Assembly: GCF_010092985.1 (NCBI RefSeq) | Contig: NZ_CP048106.1 | Span: 2,914,001 to 2,978,000, forward strand | Direction: 5' to 3' | Origin: Pontibacter pudoricolor | Lineage (GTDB): Bacteria; Bacteroidota; Bacteroidia; Cytophagales; Hymenobacteraceae | DNA: 64,000 nucleotides | Shown: one piece after another, positions 22,331-32,620 of the stretch | Numbering within the stretch: the first letter of the stretch is position 1 | Layout: every line of letters begins with the position of its first letter | The notes under the pieces: generated by a model | What the model was told of the DNA's origin: nothing | Database searches by the model: none | What the model saw: the letters and a program-made list of their open reading frames with translations, nothing else | Position numbers and translations under genes: made by a program

Positions 22331-23662
22331 TTAGTAATCTGTGTTCTGTGGGTCGAAGTTCGCCCAGCCCGCTGTCCAGTCGCTAGCACCGAAAGCACCT
22401 ACGAACTGCACCTGCTCAAAACCAGTCAGGTTACTGAATGACGCACCGCTCAGCAGCTCAGAACCAGAACCCGGAAGTAATGTTGGAGCGCCAGCCTGCT
22501 TGAAAGAACCTTCGATTTTCAGGTCTGCGTTAGAAGCTTTCTGAACGTTTGTGTTGGTCGTGAACCAGTTCTGTATATCGAATGTGCTGCCTGATGCTAC
22601 TTTAAGCGGCGTAGTTGCTGCCACTACATAGTTGTTTTTAAAGTTAAGCTCGTTTTTTGTAGCGCCGCCTTCTACAGCAGATCCATCCAGGAAAATACCA
22701 GTAGGCCAACCGGCAATTACAGAGTTGTAAACCGAAATCTTCGTGTTCTTTTTAAAGTGAACGCCGCTGCCATAGTTTGAATCTGCAGTGGTGCTGGCGG
22801 TAGCCAATGGTCCGAATAAACTCACGTTAGAGAATTTAGCCAGTGTATTTGGCGTGGCCGTATCGCCTGCCTTGTTGTTATCCGACTCAAAACCATTTGA
22901 CTTTGAAACGTCAGCCACGTTCGGGTCGCTGATGCCAAGCGCAAACTGTATCGTTCCGGAGTAACCGTTGTCTGTGTCAAACATATCGTCCACCGTTTTG
23001 TAAGCGATCAGGTGCTTGCCATTTACGGTACCACCGAACCACTCAAACGCATCATCACCACCAAACGAAACCTGCACAAAGTCGATCTCTGTTCCGCTGC
23101 CTACACCGCCAAACGTGATGCCGTTTATCTCGTTATCCGGCTGGTAAGCAATACCTGCAAACTCTACACGCACATACTTCAGCACACCCGAGTTATCAGC
23201 AGGTTTATCGCCACCATATTGTCTGTCTACGCCACCTTCAATAACGGCAGTGTTACCTAAGTTTACAGGCGCATTACCCAGTATAATCAGGCCACCCCAA
23301 TCACCTGCTTTACGAGAACCTTTTGGCTCGTTTGATGTGAACACGATAGGCTTATCGGCTGTGCCACGGGCAATGATCTGTGCGCCGCGCTCCACTATAA
23401 GCGAGCCTTTAGTGGTTTTATCGCCTTTAATAATGGTGCCCGGTTCTATAGTTAGTTTGGCTGGCGCCTTCACGTAAACAAAGCCGGTTAAAAGGTATTT
23501 CTTATCTGCTTTCAGGGTCATATCAGACGTGATACTTCCGCTCAGTTCCACCACTTCTTTATTCTGCTCAACAGGCGTAACAGTGTCGTCGCCATCATCT
23601 TTACAAGATACCGTGGCTACACCTAATAGTGCGAGCAGTAATAATGTGCTTACTTTTTTCAT
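22331..23662 (-). CDS. Exported beta-helix lipoprotein paired with a TonB receptor
   Basis: 443 residues. The signal peptide ends at VATVSC (lipid cysteine at residue 20). An Asp-rich linker follows, then a repetitive beta-rich body (SGSITSDMTLKADKKYLLTG, LTIEPGTIIKGDKTTKGSLIVERGAQI, DWGGLIILGNAPV) typical of right-handed parallel beta-helices. Substrate unknown. It lies 46 bases downstream of the TonB receptor on the same strand, so both probably share the Pho-box-like promoter at 26606-26633. That makes it a candidate surface lipoprotein for capturing phosphate or a phosphorylated compound (inference). Confidence 0.78.
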   Translation of the reverse strand: MKKVSTLLLLALLGVATVSCKDDGDDTVTPVEQNKEVVELSGSITSDMTLKADKKYLLTGFVYVKAPAKLTIEPGTIIKGDKTTKGSLIVERGAQIIARGTADKPIVFTSNEPKGSRKAGDWGGLIILGNAPVNLGNTAVIEGGVDRQYGGDKPADNSGVLKYVRVEFAGIAYQPDNEINGITFGGVGSGTEIDFVQVSFGGDDAFEWFGGTVNGKHLIAYKTVDDMFDTDNGYSGTIQFALGISDPNVADVSKSNGFESDNNKAGDTATPNTLAKFSNVSLFGPLATASTTADSNYGSGVHFKKNTKISVYNSVIAGWPTGIFLDGSAVEGGATKNELNFKNNYVVAATTPLKVASGSTFDIQNWFTTNTNVQKASNADLKIEGSFKQAGAPTLLPGSGSELLSGASFSNLTGFEQVQFVGAFGASDWTAGWANFDPQNTDY

Positions 23663-23708
23663 GGTTAATAAAATTTAGGTTAAAGGTTTTTGGGTTGAAG
23701 ATTTTCTT

Positions 23709-26507
23709 CTAGAATTTATAGTTGATGCCCAGCGTAGTATAGCTACCGCGCTTATAGTTGGTAAAGTCGTCGTCCTGGGAGTTGATCTTTGTATCGCGGT
23801 TAGAGTCCTGCATCAGGATTACTTTCTGGTTCAGCAGGTCCTGGATACCGGCTTTTAGCTCCAGGTGCTTGCCTATACCTTTTGTTACCGACAGGTCGAG
23901 CACGTTGCGCGGCATTTCGTAAACTGTTGGTGCCTGGTCATCGCCTACTGTAAAAATGCGCTTGCCAATTACGTTGTAAAGCATATTCACCTGCAGGTCA
24001 CGTGCCTCATCGTTAAAGTATAACCCGGCGTTTACTATAAAAGGCGACTGTCCGTACATGGCTCTGTTTCTTTCCTGTCCCTCCGATTCGGCTCCCAGGT
24101 CTACTTTACTTTCTATCAGCGAAGCGTTCAGTACCAGGCTCATGTTCTGTATCAGGCTGCGGTTCGACAGGTTCAGGAATGATTTTCTGATCTCAGTTTC
24201 GATACCATAGCTCTGTGCGTTGCTGGCATTTTTTGGTTGGTAAATCGGGTTGCCGGATGCAGGTATACTATAGATCTCGATCGGATTTTTGAAGTACTTG
24301 TAAAACACTCCCACCGACAGTATCTCCGTAGGGTTAGGGTAAAACTCGAAGCGCAGATCGGTGTTGTGTATCGTGGCGGTCTTCAGGTTCTCGTTCCCTC
24401 TTATTTCGGCATTCAGCTGAAAATCGTAGTAGGTAAACGGGGCCAGCTCTCTGAACTCAGGGCGGTTTACGCTTATACTATAGCCACCGCGCAACAGCGT
24501 TCTGTCTGTAATATTGTACGTTGCGTTAAGCGACGGAAGTATGCTTGTAATCGGGTTATTTACTTCTGTTTTGCCACCACCATATTTAGATGTGCTAAGT
24601 TGCTGCTCGTTAAACTCCACACGCAGTCCACCCGAAAGATTAAGCTGATCATTCACCGGAAGGTTACCGCCCAAATAACCGGCTACCAACAAGCTTGAGG
24701 CATCGTATCTGTCGGTTGGATTGGTTCCTTCTGCCATGCTAAAGCCGCTGGTGCTTATATTTTCGGAGGTAAACAGCTGACCTAATGGCGATGTCAGCAG
24801 GTTTCTGTTAAACTGGCCTGGGTCAGAGATAATGTAAGACATCCAGCGCGCTTCAAAATTCCTGTTCTTGTTCTCGGCATAAAAACCGGCTCTCAGTTTA
24901 GGCTGATTTTCTGCAACCGTATCTTTGGCTGTAAATCTGCGCTCTATCTGTCCGCTTGCCAGCACGGTGTTTTCCTTCATCTCAGAATCAAATCGGCCGG
25001 CATCAAACGTGGTAGCGGAGTTTTGCGGAATTACCCATCTGAAAGGCTCGTTACTATCTATGTTACGCTGCGACCTGATGCGCTTGTAGCTTGGTTCGTT
25101 TCGGTTGCTATAGTTGTAGCCGGCTGTCCAGGTATAAGTGGTGCGATCGTCGTCGGCATCGTGTGTGCCCTGCAACTGGCCCGAGTAAACCGTTCTGCTT
25201 TCGTAGCGCTGCGAGAAGTTCTGTACATCCACACTTTTACCCTGTACTTCCTGGCCGGTACGCGCAATTACCTGCGACTGCCCCATCTGGTTAAACAGGT
25301 TCCGGAATTCTATCTTGTTGCTGTTGTTCAGCCTGAAAGCCCAGTTACTGATCAGTCCTACCCGCGCGTTCCGGCTCGATTCGGTGTCGCTGTAACTATA
25401 TTCTATCAGGTTGGTCTTCTGTTCGGCTTCGTTGTAAGTATAGCGGTAGCGGTTTACGTTTTGCAGCTGGCTGGTATTGCTGTAACTTAAAGCTGTGAGG
25501 TTGCTGGCTTCGGTGTTGCCTACAAAAAAGCGGCGGGTAAGCCCAAACGAAAGGCGAAGGTCCGGTGCAGCAGATTTGGTATTAAATGCCCAGTCGTTCT
25601 TTAGTTGTTTGGCTGCTGTTATTAAACTTTCGCCACCAACATTATTTAAGTGCGATGGGAAAGAAGTTGGTAACGCTCTGGTATTAGTATCAAACCCCAG
25701 GAAATCGGTATTGCTGCCCTGCTGTGTGTTTATAGTTTTAAAAGTGGTACCGCTGCGGTAGCCGCCCGTTATGCCAAAGCTGGTTGTATTCTCGCTGGCG
25801 AAGTTCTTGGTGTATACTTTTATTACGCCACCGCCAAACTCACCCGGCAACTCCGGCGACCCAGATTTAAACACAAGGATCCGGTCCAGAACACTTGTTG
25901 GAAGAATATCGAAAGAGAAAGCCCTGGAATCCGGTTCTGTACTTGGTGCAAGTGCGTCGTTAAGCATTACCGTGTTGTAGCGCTCGCTCAGGCCGCGTAT
26001 CATAATGTATTTGTCGTTCATTACGGTTACGCCCGGTATGCGCCTTACCACCGCAGCCGCATCTCTGTCCAACGATTTGGCTATCTGCTCCCCCGACACG
26101 CCGCTCACTACAATCTCGCTTTGTCTCAGGTCCTGCATCAGGGCAAGGTCGGTGTTGGTCTGGCGGGTGGCTACCACTTCTACCACGTTCAGCTCGGTGC
26201 TGTTATCTTCGAGCTGTATATTAAGTGTGGTTGGCTGGCCTGGCTTTATAGTTACGCCCGGGTTTTCGGATGGCTTATAAGAAAGGAAGGTTACTGCTAC
26301 GGTGTGTGTGCCCTGGTCCAGTGTTAAACTATAGTTGCCTTCGTAGTCGGTGCTGGTGCCTTTGGCTGTGCCTTTAATAAATACGACGGCGCCTATTACG
26401 GCTTCGCCGGTTGCTTTGTCGGTTACGTTGCCTTTTAGTGTGCCCTGTTGTGCAACGGCAAAATTTATAGTTAAAACCGTGGTGAGAATGGTAAGTAAAA
26501 ACTTCAT
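23709..26507 (-). CDS. TonB-dependent outer-membrane receptor
   Basis: 932 residues. A signal peptide (MKFLLTILTTVLTINFAVAQ) precedes a carboxypeptidase-regulatory-like beta-sandwich (about 22-105: LKGNVTDKATGEAVIGAVVF). The plug (about 125-250) contains RDAAAVVRRIPGVTV, IMIRGLSERYNTVMLNDAL and PELPGEFGGGVIKV. A 22-strand barrel fills the rest and ends with GSYTTLGINYKF. This is the standard Bacteroidota active transporter for large or scarce ligands. Upstream direct repeats like Pho boxes and the neighbouring porin and pst genes suggest phosphate or a phospho-compound as ligand; sequence alone does not prove it. Confidence 0.9.
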   Translation of the reverse strand: MKFLLTILTTVLTINFAVAQQGTLKGNVTDKATGEAVIGAVVFIKGTAKGTSTDYEGNYSLTLDQGTHTVAVTFLSYKPSENPGVTIKPGQPTTLNIQLEDNSTELNVVEVVATRQTNTDLALMQDLRQSEIVVSGVSGEQIAKSLDRDAAAVVRRIPGVTVMNDKYIMIRGLSERYNTVMLNDALAPSTEPDSRAFSFDILPTSVLDRILVFKSGSPELPGEFGGGVIKVYTKNFASENTTSFGITGGYRSGTTFKTINTQQGSNTDFLGFDTNTRALPTSFPSHLNNVGGESLITAAKQLKNDWAFNTKSAAPDLRLSFGLTRRFFVGNTEASNLTALSYSNTSQLQNVNRYRYTYNEAEQKTNLIEYSYSDTESSRNARVGLISNWAFRLNNSNKIEFRNLFNQMGQSQVIARTGQEVQGKSVDVQNFSQRYESRTVYSGQLQGTHDADDDRTTYTWTAGYNYSNRNEPSYKRIRSQRNIDSNEPFRWVIPQNSATTFDAGRFDSEMKENTVLASGQIERRFTAKDTVAENQPKLRAGFYAENKNRNFEARWMSYIISDPGQFNRNLLTSPLGQLFTSENISTSGFSMAEGTNPTDRYDASSLLVAGYLGGNLPVNDQLNLSGGLRVEFNEQQLSTSKYGGGKTEVNNPITSILPSLNATYNITDRTLLRGGYSISVNRPEFRELAPFTYYDFQLNAEIRGNENLKTATIHNTDLRFEFYPNPTEILSVGVFYKYFKNPIEIYSIPASGNPIYQPKNASNAQSYGIETEIRKSFLNLSNRSLIQNMSLVLNASLIESKVDLGAESEGQERNRAMYGQSPFIVNAGLYFNDEARDLQVNMLYNVIGKRIFTVGDDQAPTVYEMPRNVLDLSVTKGIGKHLELKAGIQDLLNQKVILMQDSNRDTKINSQDDDFTNYKRGSYTTLGINYKF

Positions 26508-26605
26508 AGCGATGTACTGTTGTTTAGTCTCGCTGCAAAAGTAGAGAGGCAGTTTTACCTGAAGTTTAAGGGGAAATTATGTTAGCATTAACCTTTGATT
26601 TCAGA

Positions 26606-26633
26606 TGTTAAGCACGGGTTAATTCCATGTTAA
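26606..26633 (-). promoter_or_regulatory. Pho-box-like direct repeats for the TonB receptor
   Basis: On the minus strand the hexamers TTAACA, TTAACC and TTAACA are spaced exactly 11 bases apart (26633, 26622 and 26611 as first bases), about 100 bases ahead of the receptor ATG. A fourth, weaker GTAATG lies one period upstream. The pattern is that of PhoB/PhoP-type response-regulator sites. Confidence 0.65.
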
Positions 26634-26746
26634 CTATACATTACATCAGTTCCTGAAAGAAATTAAAAGCACCAGTGAGAGATCATCCAAAACAGGCTAA
26701 ATCACTGGTAATCATCCCCTGGTAGTTTTAGAGCAACAGCAAAACA

Positions 26747-26785
26747 ATAACATGAATTTAACATTGGCGTAACTTTCGAGTAATA
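26747..26785 (+). promoter_or_regulatory. Pho-box-like direct repeats for the porin
   Basis: ATAACA (26747), TTAACA (26758), GTAACT (26769) and GTAATA (26780) are four hexamers at an exact 11-base period. They are followed ten bases later by TTATTTTG (26795-26802), one mismatch from TAnnTTTG. The rest of this 440-base divergent gap shows nothing else I recognise. Confidence 0.65.
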
Positions 26786-26947
26786 TACAGGCAGTTATTT
26801 TGCATCGTGATTTAGTAACCGGATTATAGCAGTCTGACTAACTGCCGTAGCTGATTATCTAAAATTCGGACATAGCTTTTGGGCTATGCTGTTATATTTT
26901 ATAGTTTCACGACCCCAGGATTAATTCTCACCTTAAACCAAAGTACC

Positions 26948-28138
26948 GTGATTACCCATTCCCGTACCTTCCTATTTTTACTAAGCACAGCTATAGTTGC
27001 CTCAGTTGGCAGTGCAAATGCCCAGACTATAAACGAATCTAAACTTGGCAAAGGCCTGCAGTTTGTTGCAGCAGACTCTTCTTTCAGCGTAAAACTAGGC
27101 GCTCGTTTTCAGGTGCTTTACCAGGGCGGCTATACGCCTGTTACCGAGCAGTGGGAAGATCGTTTCGTTATCCGCAGAGCCCGTCTTAAACTCGAAGGTT
27201 TTGCTTACAGCCCAAAGCTGGAATATAAAATAGAGCTTGGCCTGAGCAACAACGACATCGGAGGCAATATGGGCAGCCAGAATAATAACGCCAGCAACAT
27301 TGTATTAGATGCTGTGGCTAAATGGGAAATAACACCCGGTTTGCAACTATATGTAGGCCAGACAAAATTACCCGGCAACCGCGAACGGATCATCTCCTCT
27401 CAGAAAATGCAGTTCGTGGACCGCAGCTTACTAAACTCCCGCTTTACCCTGGACCGCGATACCGGTCTGCAGCTTCATCACGAGCACCAGGTAGGTCAGG
27501 TTGTTCTGCGTGAGATCGCTTCTATTTCCACCGGCGATGGCCGCAATATTACTGTGAACCATTCTGGGGGTTATGACTATACCGGCCGTTTCGAGATTTT
27601 GCCTATGGGTGCTTTTGAAGGAGAAGGTGACTATGTAGGAAGCGACATTTACCGCGAGCCAACTCCTAAACTGGCCCTTGCCGCAGCTTATGATTTTAAC
27701 GACAGAGCATCGCGGGAGCAGGGCCAGCTTGGCGATTTCCTGGGCGCCGAGCGCGACCTGAACACCTTGTTTTTAGATGCTATGTTTAAGTACAGAGGCT
27801 TTTCAGCTATGGCAGAATATGCTGCCAGAAGAGCGCCGGACGGACCTGTTGTGCTGGTAAATGATGCCGGCGAAGTGGAAGAGACGTTTGTAACCGGAGA
27901 CGCATTTAACATACAGGCAGGCTATCTTTTTATGAACAACTGGGAAGTAGCAGGCCGCTATACCAACTATGAGCCTACAAAAGTTACCGGCTTAACCGCG
28001 GAGAACCAGTATACCCTGGGCGTTTCAAAATACATAGTTGGTCATGCCCTGAAAGTACAAAGCGACCTGACCAGAAGCGAGCAGCGCGGACTTGGCGAGA
28101 AGTACCAGTTCAGGGTACAACTTGAAATCGGTTTCTAA
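26948..28138 (+). CDS. OprP/OprO-type phosphate-selective porin
   Basis: An outer-membrane barrel of 396 residues. From the GTG at 26948 it has a good signal peptide (ITHSRTFLFLLSTAIVASVG, cleavage after ANAQ). It then shows the porin O/P pattern: FSVKLGARFQVLYQGG, FVIRRARLKLEGFAYSPKLEYKIELG, and the long C-terminal strands ending KYQFRVQLEIGF. I chose the GTG because the frame back to 26879 adds 23 residues ahead of the signal. This family makes phosphate or polyphosphate channels in Pseudomonas. Location between a Pho-box-like site and pstS supports the same role here. Confidence 0.88.
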   Translation: MITHSRTFLFLLSTAIVASVGSANAQTINESKLGKGLQFVAADSSFSVKLGARFQVLYQGGYTPVTEQWEDRFVIRRARLKLEGFAYSPKLEYKIELGLSNNDIGGNMGSQNNNASNIVLDAVAKWEITPGLQLYVGQTKLPGNRERIISSQKMQFVDRSLLNSRFTLDRDTGLQLHHEHQVGQVVLREIASISTGDGRNITVNHSGGYDYTGRFEILPMGAFEGEGDYVGSDIYREPTPKLALAAAYDFNDRASREQGQLGDFLGAERDLNTLFLDAMFKYRGFSAMAEYAARRAPDGPVVLVNDAGEVEETFVTGDAFNIQAGYLFMNNWEVAGRYTNYEPTKVTGLTAENQYTLGVSKYIVGHALKVQSDLTRSEQRGLGEKYQFRVQLEIGF

Positions 28139-28146
28139 GCCGGAAC

Positions 28147-28184
28147 TTAACAATTACTTAACATTGCGTAACAATAAGATAACA
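28147..28184 (+). promoter_or_regulatory. Pho-box-like direct repeats for pstSCAB-phoU
   Basis: TTAACA (28147), TTAACA (28158), GTAACA (28168) and ATAACA (28179) recur with 11-, 10- and 11-base spacing, about 165 bases ahead of the pstS ATG. A possible -7 element TCCCTTTG is at 28216-28223. Confidence 0.72.
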
Positions 28185-28346
28185 CCATACACTTCCGTAA
28201 AAGCGTTTTTCTCCGTCCCTTTGTATCGACAAACTATAGTTACCGTAGTATAACCCAAAAGTTTAAATAAGGCTTGCATTATAAAATCAGCCTGAAATTA
28301 TCCGGGTATAAAACTTAGCAAAAGCTGACTTAGAAAAAACGTATCT

Positions 28347-29363
28347 ATGTTGCACCTGAAACTTAAAAACCTGGCTGCTGCTGCACTTCTTTTACTGGTT
28401 GCAGCCTGTGGCCCTAAGTATAACGAAGACGCGGATCTTACCCTGAAAGGCGACATTTCGATAGATGGCTCCTCAACAGTATATCCCATTACCGAAGCAG
28501 TTGCAGAAGAATTCAGATACGCCGCCCCGAATGTACGCACAACGATAGGTGTGTCCGGCTCGGGTGGTGGTTTCAAGAAATTCTCGCGCGGCGAGATAGA
28601 TATCAGCAATGCATCACGCTCTATAAAAGAAGATGAAGCCAAAGCTGCCAGAGCCAATGGTCTTGATTTTATTGAGCTCTCTGTAGCTTATGATGGACTA
28701 ACTATAGTTGTAAACCCTAAAAACGACTGGGTAAAGGACATAACCGTTGCGGAGCTTAAAAAGATGTGGGAGCCTGCTGCCCAAAACAAAATAAAGCGTT
28801 GGAACCAGATTCGCCCGGAATGGCCAAACCGTGAAATACATCTTTACGGTGCTGGTGTCGAGTCCGGAACGTACGACTATTTTACCGAAGCTATAGTTGG
28901 TACAAGCCATGCCAGCCGCGGCGACTTTACAGCCAGCGAAGACGACAACGTACTGGTACAGGGCGTTGCCGGCGACATTAACGCACTTGGCTTTTTCGGG
29001 TATGCCTACTACGAAGAGAATAAAGATAAGCTGAAAGCCATACCTGTTGATGATGAAGACGCAAGCAATGGTACGGGCCCTATCCTTCCTTCACTGGAAA
29101 CTATAAAGGATGGCTCCTACGCTCCCCTTTCTCGGGCATTGTTCTTATACGTTAACTCTCCAGCTGTTAAAAAGCCACAGGTAGTAGAATTTATGGACTT
29201 TTATTTTGAAAATGTAGGTCAGCTGAGCCAGGAAATAGGCTTTATTCCGTTACCTGACGAAAAATATAAGGCAGAACACCAGAAGTTTAAAGACTTTGTA
29301 GCCAAACACACAGGCAATGCCACAACCCAACGCAAAACCGACTCAACCAATACTTCTCATTAA
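28347..29363 (+). CDS. pstS: Phosphate ABC transporter, substrate-binding lipoprotein PstS
   Basis: 338 residues. The lipobox LLVAAC places the lipid cysteine at residue 21. The phosphate-binding motifs of the PstS fold are present: [20 protein letters not shown] (near 32), [27 protein letters not shown] (near 66) and [18 protein letters not shown] with [12 protein letters not shown] (near 172). It captures inorganic phosphate in the periplasm and passes it to PstCA. It is the first gene of pstS-pstC-pstA-pstB-phoU, with four TTAACA-type repeats upstream. Confidence 0.95.
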
Positions 29364-29381
29364 TAATATTAACCGGAAACC

Positions 29382-30257
29382 ATGAGAATACAGGAAAGAA
29401 TAATAGAAGGTTTGTTGTGGCTATCGGCTGCAATTACCATTCTCGTTACGGCCGGCATCATTTGGGTACTGCTTTCTGAGTCGCTTACATTCTTCTCAGA
29501 AGTATCTATAATTGATTTTCTGACAGATAAACAATGGACACCGCTTTTTGCCGATAAGCACTTTGGTATACTTCCGCTGGTGGCCGGTACCATGCTGACC
29601 ACAGCTATAGCTATTGCGGTTGCCTTGCCCATCGGTTTAACTATAGCCATTTACCTGAACACCTATGCGCCGGCTGGCTTCCGGGCAACTATAAAACCAA
29701 TGCTGGAGATTCTGGCAAGTATACCAACGGTGGTATATGGTTTTTTTGCGCTTACCGTTGTTACGCCTTTCCTGCAATCCTTTATTCCTAATCTGGCTGG
29801 TTTTAACTCGCTTTCAGCAGGTATGGTAATGGGCATCATGATCATCCCGATGATCTCATCGCTCAGTGAAGATGCTATCAGTGCAGTACCGAAATCGTTG
29901 CGCGAAGGTGCTTATGGCATGGGAGCCACTAAATTCCAGACTGCTTTTGGGGTTTTGGTTCCGGCAGCTTCTTCGGGTATTCTGGTGTCTATCATCCTGG
30001 CTATTTCCAGAGCGGTTGGCGAAACCATGCTTGTTGCCATTGCAGCCGGTCAGCAGCCGCGCCTTACTGCCAACCCGTTGGTACCTATCGAAACGATAAC
30101 GACTTACATTGTGCAGGTTAGCTTAGGCGACGTACCGCATGGCTCGCTGGAGTACCGCACTATTTTCGCGGCAGGTATCACGCTGTTCATTTTTACATTT
30201 GCGCTGAATAACATCAGCTTCTGGATCAGAAAGAAATATCAGGAAAAATATGACTAA
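29382..30257 (+). CDS. pstC: Phosphate ABC transporter permease PstC
   Basis: A 291-residue inner-membrane permease with six or more hydrophobic segments. The BPD-permease EAA loop reads SLREGAYGMGATKFQTAFGVLVPAA (about 168-192). PTVVYGFFAL and the preceding hydrophobic run are typical of PstC. It pairs with PstA to form the channel. It starts 18 bases after pstS and overlaps pstA by 8 bases. Confidence 0.95.
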   Translation: MRIQERIIEGLLWLSAAITILVTAGIIWVLLSESLTFFSEVSIIDFLTDKQWTPLFADKHFGILPLVAGTMLTTAIAIAVALPIGLTIAIYLNTYAPAGFRATIKPMLEILASIPTVVYGFFALTVVTPFLQSFIPNLAGFNSLSAGMVMGIMIIPMISSLSEDAISAVPKSLREGAYGMGATKFQTAFGVLVPAASSGILVSIILAISRAVGETMLVAIAAGQQPRLTANPLVPIETITTYIVQVSLGDVPHGSLEYRTIFAAGITLFIFTFALNNISFWIRKKYQEKYD

Positions 30258-31107
30258 CTCGGAGCTAAACAGACTAAAAGACAAAGCCTTCCAGGGATTC
30301 GGTATTTTCTGTACCCTGATCGGACTGGTTGTGCTTGCTATTTTCCTGATCAACATCCTGATCGATGGGCTTGGCCGTATAGACTGGGATTTCCTGCGTA
30401 ACCTGCCATCTCGCCGCGCACACCGCGCCGGTATCTACACCGCCTGGATCGGTACACTCTGGATACTGGTACTTTCATCGCTATTTGCTTTCCCGCTGGG
30501 TATTTCAGCAGGCATTTACCTGGAAGAGTATGGCAAAAAGAACAGGATGGCATCTTTCCTGGAAGTAAATATTTCGAATCTTGCCGGGGTACCTTCCATT
30601 ATCTATGGTTTGCTGGGCCTGGAGATCTTTGGGCGTGTTTTTGGTTTAGGTGGCAGTTTGCTTACAGGGGCGCTAACCCTGGGCCTGCTTATCCTCCCGA
30701 TCATTATCGTAACCACCCGCGAATCTATAAAAGCCGTGCCACGCAGTATCCGTGACGCCTCTTTTGCGTTGGGAGCCTCTAAATGGCAAACCATCTGGTT
30801 CCAGGTGCTTCCGGCTTCGTTTGGCGGCATTATGACAGGTGTTATCCTTGCATTGTCGAGGGCAGTAGGTGAAGCGGCCCCGCTTATAGTTATCGGGGCA
30901 CTGGCTTACGTACCGTTTGCACCAAGCTCACCTATGGACGAATTTACCGTATTACCAATTCAGATATTTAACTGGATATCAAGGCCTCAGGCTGCTTTTG
31001 CTACAAATGCCGCTGCTGCCATTATCATACTTTTAATTATTACCTTTACTTTGAACGGAATCGCTGTATACCTTCGCCACAAGTGGCAGAAACGTGTAAA
31101 GTGGTAA
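30250..31107 (+). CDS. pstA: Phosphate ABC transporter permease PstA
   Basis: A 285-residue second channel subunit. After the first TM segment it has the PstA-type [21 protein letters not shown] and then [14 protein letters not shown]. The EAA loop is [25 protein letters not shown] (about 161-185). It overlaps pstC by 8 bases and ends 7 bases before pstB, so expression is tightly coupled. Confidence 0.95.
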
Positions 31108-31114
31108 AATAACG

Positions 31115-31879
31115 ATGAGTAAGAAAAACCAGAAACTGGAAGCCCGTAACCTGAACGCCTATTATGGCAGCTTCCACGCCCTTAAAGACATTAACATTGC
31201 CATGGAAGAAAAAGCTGTTACGGCTTTTATTGGTCCATCGGGTTGTGGTAAGTCAACGTTTTTGCGCACCCTAAACCGTATGAACGACTATATCGACGGC
31301 TTTAGAGTAGAAGGAGACATTCTGCTTGATGGCCGCGACATTTATACGAAAGATGTACGTGTGGATGAACTTCGCAAACAGGTAGGAATGGTTTTCCAGA
31401 AGCCAAACCCATTCCCGAAAACTGTGTTTGAGAACGTAGTATACGGGCTGAAGATACAAGGCATCAAAGACAAGAAAACTCTGAACGAGATAGCGGAAAC
31501 ATCGCTCCGAAAAACTGCTTTATGGGAAGAGGTAAAAGACAAGCTGGATAAATCGGCACTGGCGCTTTCGGGTGGTCAGCAACAGCGCCTTTGTATTGCC
31601 CGTGCACTTGCTATTTCGCCGTCTGTTATACTTATGGATGAGCCAACTTCAGCCCTGGACCCGATCTCTACCGCCAAAATTGAAGAGCTGCTCTACGAAC
31701 TGAAAGAGGATTACACTATAGTTATAGTTACACACAACATGCAACAGGCTGGCCGTGTAAGCGATCAGACAGCGTTCTTTTACATGGGCGAACTGATCGA
31801 GTTTGCGAAAACCAAAACCATGTTTACGAGCCCGAAGCACGAGCGTACCCAAAACTATATTACAGGCCGATTCGGTTAA
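31115..31879 (+). CDS. pstB: Phosphate ABC transporter ATPase PstB
   Basis: A 254-residue ATP-binding subunit. Walker A is GPSGCGKST (near 44), the Q-loop is [20 protein letters not shown], the signature is [16 protein letters not shown] (near 154), and Walker B is [13 protein letters not shown] followed by the H-loop in [19 protein letters not shown] after the Q-loop is specific to PstB. It energises uptake through PstCA. Confidence 0.97.
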
Positions 31880-31933
31880 GCTTTTATAGTTTACAGCATG
31901 CATGTTTTGATTATCAATCTAACGAGAGACTAA

Positions 31934-32620
31934 ATGAACCAAATAGATATTGAACTTACTGGCCTGCGGGTTAAACTAATGGAGATGTGGGACCTGGTGG
32001 AGTATCAGCTGCAGAGCGGCCGCGAAGCCATGTTGAACGCAGACCATGAACTTGCCAGTAAAGTAGTGAAGCTTGGGAAAAAAGTTAACAACTTTGATGT
32101 GAAGATAGACCGCATGTGCGAAAACCTGTTGGCCCTGTACACTCCCGTTGCCGTGGATCTTCGTCTGGTATTGGCTACCCTCAAGATAAATGCTAACCTG
32201 GAGCGCATCGGCGATACGGCAGAAGGTATTTCAATGTACGTGCAGAACAGAGAGGCAAAGTTCAGCCCTGAAATGTTAGAAATAACGAAGGCTGTAACAA
32301 TGTTTGATGAAGCGCTGGCTATGTTTAATGACTGCCGGGTTGCATACAAAGCGAATAACAGCGAGCAGGCACGCACTATTATTAAGCGCGACAAAATGCT
32401 AAATAAGATCTACCGTAAATCGGACGCTATTATTGCGGAGTTCATGCGCGCTAACCCGGACAGCATAGAAGAAGGCCTTGCCCTGCTTTCTATCATCAAA
32501 AAAGTAGAACGTGTCGGCGACCAGATCACAAACATCGCTGAAGAAATCATCTTCTACCAGGATGCTAAAGTAGTAAAGCATAAAACTAAAAATAAGAACA
32601 AAGATAAAGGCAAGGAGTAA
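31934..32620 (+). CDS. phoU: Phosphate signalling regulator PhoU
   Basis: A 228-residue protein of two similar three-helix bundles, each with the PhoU metal-binding signature: LRLVLATLKINANLERIGDTAEGIS (about 78-102) and LLSIIKKVERVGDQITNIAEEI (about 183-204). PhoU links PstB activity to the Pho sensor kinase and switches the regulon off when phosphate is plentiful. The lysine-rich tail (KHKTKNKNKDKGKE) is a lineage feature. It closes the pst operon. No kinase or response regulator is in the window. Confidence 0.95.
   Translation: MNQIDIELTGLRVKLMEMWDLVEYQLQSGREAMLNADHELASKVVKLGKKVNNFDVKIDRMCENLLALYTPVAVDLRLVLATLKINANLERIGDTAEGISMYVQNREAKFSPEMLEITKAVTMFDEALAMFNDCRVAYKANNSEQARTIIKRDKMLNKIYRKSDAIIAEFMRANPDSIEEGLALLSIIKKVERVGDQITNIAEEIIFYQDAKVVKHKTKNKNKDKGKE

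Follow-up and report, generated by a model that had tools for sequence, protein, structure and literature searches.

A TTAACA-type repeat upstream of phosphate uptake genes in Pontibacter pudoricolor as a putative Pho box of Bacteroidota

Genes and repeat sets at the phosphate locus

The window analyzed here is a stretch of 64,000 nucleotides from Pontibacter pudoricolor, whose genome consists of a single contig of 4.34 Mb. From left to right, the locus contains a lipoprotein gene and a TonB receptor gene on the minus strand (22331-26507), a porin gene on the plus strand (26948-28138) and the pstSCAB-phoU genes on the plus strand (28347-32620). The encoded PstS is 98% identical to PstS of Pontibacter populi HLY7-15 (locus L033). 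The genes, repeat sets and promoter elements are as follows; the E-values are those of the whole-genome profile search described below.

22331-23662, minus strand: lipoprotein gene, downstream of the receptor gene; no Pfam or NCBIfam match; beta-rich predicted model
23709-26507, minus strand: TonB-dependent receptor gene; PF00593, PF07715 and PF13715 above cut-offs
26536-26543, minus strand: -7 element TACTTTTG of the receptor, a perfect match 9 bp past the last proximal hexamer; relatives agree
26553-26591, minus strand: putative proximal Pho box of the TonB receptor, TTAATG/ATAATT/TTAAAC/GTAAAA, period 11; rough profile E 5.6e-8
26606-26644, minus strand: putative distal Pho box of the TonB receptor, GTAATG/TTAACA/TTAACC/TTAACA, spacing 11-11-11; rough profile E only 5.1
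26747-26785, plus strand: putative Pho box of the OprP-type porin, ATAACA/TTAACA/GTAACT/GTAATA, spacing 11-11-11; rough profile E 1.7e-12
26795-26802, plus strand: -7 element TTATTTTG of the porin, a TAnnTTTG match 9 bp past the last hexamer
26948-28138, plus strand: OprP/OprO-type porin gene (GTG start assumed); PF07396, 45.7 bits, cut-off 20.9
28147-28184, plus strand: putative Pho box of pstSCAB-phoU, TTAACA/TTAACA/GTAACA/ATAACA, spacing 11-10-11; rough profile E 4.4e-4
28216-28223, plus strand: putative -7 element TCCCTTTG of pstS, 31 bp (9+22) past the last hexamer; same distance in 9 of 10 pstS promoters
28347-29363, plus strand: pstS; TIGR02136, 298.8 bits, cut-off 206.6
29382-32620, plus strand: pstC, pstA, pstB and phoU, downstream of pstS; TIGR02138 and TIGR02135 above cut-off, pstA and pstB from open reading frame reading

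The predicted model of the lipoprotein is rich in beta-strands, with a mean pLDDT of 71. A search of the PDB at E<=1e-3 gave no structural match, and the weaker matches were of the beta-helix type: among the best 50 of 360, judged by title, most were pectate lyases, tailspikes and similar proteins. This agrees with the description of the FI-FIII lipoproteins of F. johnsoniae, which are said to resemble pectate lyases (PMC8115612). Because of the mean pLDDT of 71 and the lack of a PDB match at that threshold, a parallel beta-helix in the modelled protein is only a lead.

The first-pass annotation had described TTAACA-like hexamers at an 11-base period before the receptor, the porin and pstS. 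Their presence was confirmed by shuffling: TAACA-N6-TAACA-N6-TAACA with up to three mismatches matched 14 times in the window, compared to 2.99 +/- 2.00 times in shuffled sequence, and none of 100 shuffles reached 14. Eight of these 14 matches, overlapping registers counted, fall within the three sets. The porin, pstS and distal receptor sets are also the top three four-hexamer sites on both strands of the window, a rank that is circular on its own because the score was written from these very sites. The hexamer pair with one mismatch was no commoner than expected by chance (11 matches compared to 7.4 in shuffled sequence, with 13 of 100 shuffles reaching 11), which is what would be seen if three unrelated sets merely resembled each other in AT-rich intergenic DNA. 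This explanation is hardly credible, as it is excluded by the three-hexamer test together with the cross-species conservation and the genome searches with reversed controls reported below.

Each set contains four conserved tandem direct repeats. The 11-base period holds for the porin and receptor sets, which are spaced 11-11-11, but the pstS set departs from it (11-10-11). The receptor repeats assigned to 26606-26633 of the minus strand are present; however, that assignment left out a fourth hexamer at 26639-26644 and a second, nearer set at 26591-26553 of the same strand, which ends 9 bp before a perfect -7 element. The receptor promoter therefore has eight hexamers. Distal sets of this kind were also found in the loci L033, L035, L038, L042, L043 and L050 of relatives, and relatives possess proximal sets too.

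Promoter geometry and specificity within the genome

The sequence TAnnTTTG is reported as the consensus of the Bacteroidota -7 element, and in F. johnsoniae its -33 partner is reported as not identifiable (PMC7366714). Where the layout was recognised in Pontibacter porin and receptor promoters, four TTAACA-like hexamers are followed by 9 bp and then by TAnnTTTG. Both boxes recur in named Pontibacter species and relatives while the flanking sequence diverges; at 21 of 28 loci the porin box was recognised where it was expected, and it lies further out in L034, L043 and L045. In a count of site rows that includes overlapping registers and distal sets, the distance between box and TAnnTTTG was 9 bp in 51 rows and 20 bp in 12, the latter being the same promoters read one repeat further up. 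No other distance occurred in more than two rows, and 16 rows were without a -7 match of 5/6. The pstS promoters are built differently. Ten of them, from Pontibacter and a relative, were picked by eye for a visible box from 32 loci, and in nine, judged from its TTTG core, the -7 element lies 31 bp past the last hexamer, at a local TTTG density of 0.0048 per bp. The repeats accordingly stand at a fixed place beside the core promoter element, at 9 bp in the one group and at 31 bp in nine of the ten chosen pstS promoters.

A sequence-only profile (R1) was built from 28 aligned promoters (22 porin, 6 receptor), leaving out the window and L033, and was run against the genome of the window. With 150 of 2209 candidates scored and E-values that are rough owing to a shortened calibration, four matches were obtained at E<1e-3: the porin (1.7e-12), the receptor (5.6e-8), a Pit-like gene (1.7e-4) and pstS (4.4e-4). 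All four precede phosphate-regulon genes, and two of them, pstS and the Pit-like gene, were found although they lie outside the training classes. The next match had an E-value of 0.25. The distal receptor set (E 5.1) is one of ten weaker matches; downstream of the remaining nine, no relative of the phosphorus reference proteins was found. The promoter of the Pit-like gene lies at 3301592 of the genome. Its product is named Pit-like only, because it scores below the gathering threshold of PF01384 (21.9 of 33.7 bits, E 9.8e-5); a relative encoded in G232, 53% identical to it, also has the box. That a single profile retrieves the receptor, the porin and pstS along with the Pit-like gene argues for the proposal that the three units belong to one phosphate regulon, as far as promoter sequence can indicate.

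The genome scan for two hexamers that had been proposed at the outset performed poorly. It gave 19 matches compared to 6 with the reversed control, and only 5 of the 19 lie in phosphate promoters. An exact TTAACA-N5-TTAACA pair at G000:C1:13655-13671 (L001), before a secreted-protein gene that appears protease-like by eye, is not among the R1 matches and therefore illustrates how unspecific the pair alone is. A consensus usable for regulon searches was nonetheless obtained in a longer form, namely four hexamers plus a -7 element at 9 or 31 bp. The 14 pairs at unrelated places also bear on the explanation that phased AT-rich repeats are a general feature of strong promoters, similar to UP elements or curved DNA, and not the site of any regulator. 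The repeats are indeed AT-rich, helically phased and located directly upstream of the -7 element. The full signature, however, has only four matches at E<1e-3 in 4.34 Mb, a reversed profile of equal composition and phasing is nearly silent, and neither curvature nor UP elements would pick out phosphorus genes. We regard this explanation as very improbable.

Distribution in the family and the class

Among 60 family genomes, with 89 candidates scored per genome, R1 matched in 54 at E<=0.01, and all six sampled genera were represented; the reversed profile R2, of equal information content, matched in one. Counting only matches at E<=1e-3, 107 sites were obtained, including the four of the own genome. 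Seven are training sites; without them, 36 sites are in Pontibacter and 64 in other genera. The downstream gene was taken as the longest open reading frame starting within 450 bp of the site. By this rule 85 of the 107 sites precede relatives of five proteins: the receptor (41 sites, plus 2 with receptors of a second type), the porin (36, of two kinds), the lipoprotein (4), Pit (1) and PstS (1). Nine further sites precede genes for PhoX (2), a MauG-like protein (1), GDPD (1), a non-specific endonuclease (3) and a PlcP-like metallophosphatase (2), all of them classes absent from the R1 training set. The remaining sites precede SusC-like or other outer-membrane proteins (4), MarC (3), unknowns (3) and an ECF sigma factor (1), or have no open reading frame (2).

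Several of these sites deserve mention in their own right. In one family genome, divergent genes encode PhoX and a MauG-like di-haem enzyme, each with its own box (L229, L231), which echoes the co-induced PhoX/MauG-like pair listed for F. johnsoniae (PMC8115612). Large genes for secreted proteins or lipoproteins, without a Pfam or NCBIfam match, carry the signature at L219:480-1979, L221:1070-2542 and L216:1015-3000; as a guess, the products of the first two could be counterparts of an unnamed class of phosphatase-like lipoproteins in F. johnsoniae. The signature also precedes an ECF sigma factor gene (L234:1061-1675). ECF sigma factors are among the genes reported as induced on phosphate depletion in F. 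johnsoniae (PMC8115612), and by analogy a cascade from PhoB to an ECF sigma factor is therefore conceivable. In three genomes of Pontibacter the signature precedes a gene for a MarC/NAAT-family transporter (L214, L242, L247). We know of no phosphate role for this family. Having no obvious link to phosphate, the three MarC sites count against reading the repeats as a Pho box.

At the level of the class, R1 matched in 70 of 247 genomes at E<=1e-3 and the reversed profile in 2, with 21 candidates scored per genome in both searches. Beyond the own genome there were 89 matches, none of them a training site. With the downstream gene defined as the longest open reading frame starting within 400 bp, 60 precede recognised classes, 9 an unannotated porin-like family and 20 nothing recognised in the slice that was read, two of these 20 having no open reading frame (G291, G204). 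The recognised targets are receptors (23, one being a fragment of 118 residues), porins (9, three by clustering only), lipoproteins (8), PstS or PstC (7, among them the PstS behind the second site of G201, L305), DUF47 (PhoU_div) proteins (6), PlcP-like proteins (3), PhoB (2), Pit (1) and a metallophosphatase (1); for some unlabelled groups Pfam was run on representatives and the remaining members were assigned by BLAST clustering. Of the class genomes scored in this way, 177, including 151 with PhoB, gave no match at E<=1e-3. Either the motif is not universal in the class or the Pontibacter-trained profile overlooks it. Judged by sequence, the putative TTAACA Pho box with its fixed spacing in the Bacteroidota promoter is common in the class but not universal.

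The far spacing seen at pstS was also encountered among the 17 class sites that were matched on the box only (L294 was left out, since its match includes the -7 element). The best -7 candidate lies 31 or 42 bp past the third hexamer in seven of them, with two ties, and at other distances in five, while five have none. The genes L269, L275 and L307, all of the DUF47 (PhoU_div) type, have a perfect -7 element 42 bp past the third hexamer, and DUF47 genes are a second gene class using the far geometry.

A predicted envelope protein family of 396-487 residues was found with a Pho promoter at L255, L261, L266, L268, L271, L282, L301, L312 and L322. Several members share the motif FKPSGxLWGYAFGDYA, and Pfam gave no match for the five members searched (L255, L261, L266, L271, L282). 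In G236 the member L266 is divergent from PhoB, and in G167 the member L255 lies 2.4 kb before the site of a DUF47 gene. From sequence, this family is possibly a new phosphorus porin.

PhoB and the reading of the repeats as a Pho box

The best PhoB relative of the own genome (L112) is encoded at G000:C1:2750479-2751165 and adjoins a PhoR-like kinase. It reaches 226.5 bits, compared to 189.6 and 161.9 for the two other full-length OmpR-type regulators (L113, L114). Both names rest on best match because both proteins score below the curated cut-offs: the regulator obtains 227 of 296.2 bits with TIGR02154 and 208.5 of 270 with NF053854, the kinase stays below those of the PhoR models, and the TIGR02154 cut-off itself was exceeded in only 2 of 14 control genomes. 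The regulator consists of a receiver (PF00072) and a winged-helix domain (PF00486). Among solved structures, chains of E. coli PhoB gave the best alignment to its DNA-binding domain, and the recognition helix VYVxxRTVDVHIR is common to both. A box before phoBR of the own genome was also sought, and the best scores there, 16.2 on the plus and 18.8 on the minus strand, were not convincing.

Elsewhere in the class, the PhoB gene is at most 10 kb away from 9 of 62 matches, distributed over 8 genomes, where 0.35 would be expected (P about 1e-10 under uniform placement, ignoring contig breaks; the 62 are those of the 89 matches in genomes with a located PhoB). Two sites, L318 and L333, stand directly before phoB. 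PhoB was detected at E<=1e-62 in 69 of the 70 motif-bearing genomes compared to 151 of the 177 others (Fisher P 0.0013), and according to tables read by eye G165 is the sole motif-bearing genome without it. Tandem direct repeats of 11 bp are common across the OmpR/PhoB family. This generality, the failure of the best PhoB relative to reach the PhoB cut-offs and the presence of two further full-length OmpR-type regulators in the genome would all suit another regulator of the family, or one responding to outer-membrane or nutrient stress, that binds the boxes and controls the same genes. We consider such a regulator unlikely, given that in eight genomes the best PhoB relative has sites no more than 10 kb away and in two has them directly in front of it, that the targets include pst, DUF47/Pit, PlcP-like and PhoX genes, all with phosphorus functions, and that L112 scores higher as a PhoB than do L113 and L114.

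The motif itself was compared with known Pho boxes. The consensus of 82 class sites, which were chosen by a score favouring such hexamers, reads TTAACAtTt.ctTAACATT...tTAAcatTg..gTAAtAtT...g..gta.tTTTGcA. The initial description of the motif as unlike the enterobacterial CTGTCAT holds, as this consensus is of the TTAACA type. Sites of Bacillus subtilis PhoP consist of TTnACA repeats, and their hexamer and spacing are like those found here. The Pho box of E. coli PhoB is similar in that tandem 11-bp direct repeats precede phosphate genes about 10 bp from the -10 element (PMC1906773, PMC4415409), and the DNA-binding domain of E. coli PhoB is closely related to that of L112. It differs in its CTGTCAT repeat, in being defined by two repeats where the Pontibacter box has four, and in lying beside a sigma-70 -10 element instead of the Bacteroidota -7 element TAnnTTTG. 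Such variation of the consensus between species is described in published work (PMC4415409). The other close relative is the cyanobacterial SphR box, reported as CTTAACCT with a 3-bp linker in at least three copies (PMC1906773). Its repeat is almost identical to the cTTAACAt observed here and the unit is 11 bp in both, whereas one base of eight and the promoter type differ and the targets here include TonB receptors and lipoproteins.

For Bacteroidota, the box-bearing genes were compared with the phosphate-depletion stimulon of F. johnsoniae, which according to Table 1 of that study contains TonB receptors, FI-FIII lipoproteins, PhoX, a MauG-like protein and PlcP as well as extracellular nucleases, SusCD-like pairs, ECF sigma factors and PhoB (PMC8115612). 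A TonB receptor with a lipoprotein beside phoBR, PhoX with MauG, PlcP, a nuclease and SusCD all have counterparts among the box-bearing genes, a likeness at the level of gene classes. Differences were also noted: the induced nucleases belong to pf04231 whereas the box-bearing ones belong to PF01223, and OprP, which bears a box here, is listed as not induced in F. johnsoniae (change -1.3, adjusted P 0.25; PMC8115612). The terms "Pho box" and "promoter" are absent from the main text of that study (PMC8115612). In the literature surveyed, no Bacteroidota Pho-box consensus was found. Putative Pho boxes are mentioned in plcP clusters of marine bacteria, in work that includes a flavobacterium (PMC4796936), and an earlier prediction of a Pho box in Bacteroidota is possible.

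The repeats are conserved, regularly spaced, specific across the genome and placed at phosphorus genes as well as next to phoB. They are best explained as the Pho box of Bacteroidota, bound by PhoB (probability about 0.87); binding, activation and the phosphate response in this species are what we infer from these observations. Scarcity of phosphate would lead to phosphorylation of the PhoB-like response regulator, which would then occupy the four 11-bp repeats in tandem, probably in the form of two dimers arranged head to tail. Bound PhoB would recruit the housekeeping RNA polymerase of Bacteroidota to TAnnTTTG, which lies on the same face of the helix, and would act as an activator rather than a repressor. 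Where only 9 bp separate box and -7 element, as in the promoters of the porin and the receptor, the box may stand in for the -33 element, while in the Pontibacter pstS promoters it would act from two turns further up, at 31 bp. The predicted outcome is joint control of scavenging at the outer membrane, by receptor plus lipoprotein and by the porin, and of uptake across the inner membrane, by pstSCAB-phoU and the Pit-like transporter encoded elsewhere.

The two distances might further represent a phase-locked promoter code, in which 9 bp and 31 bp correspond to two modes of PhoB activation with different strength or phosphate threshold, serving the outer-membrane scavengers and Pst of Pontibacter, respectively. 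This idea is tentative and, on balance, we do not favour it. By eye, pstS of G089 and the DUF47 genes of G123 and G278 have the near position of about 8-9 bp and the DUF47 genes of G122, G191 and G277 the far position; the split between 9 and 31 bp is therefore not universal.

The response of a Bacteroidota species to phosphate depletion has been known from expression, and the signature described here supplies a candidate binding consensus together with a regulon search at the level of the class. Its promoters newly tie a few uncharacterised envelope protein families to phosphorus. It also offers a case in which a putative activator box keeps a constant distance to the unusual -7 element of Bacteroidota.
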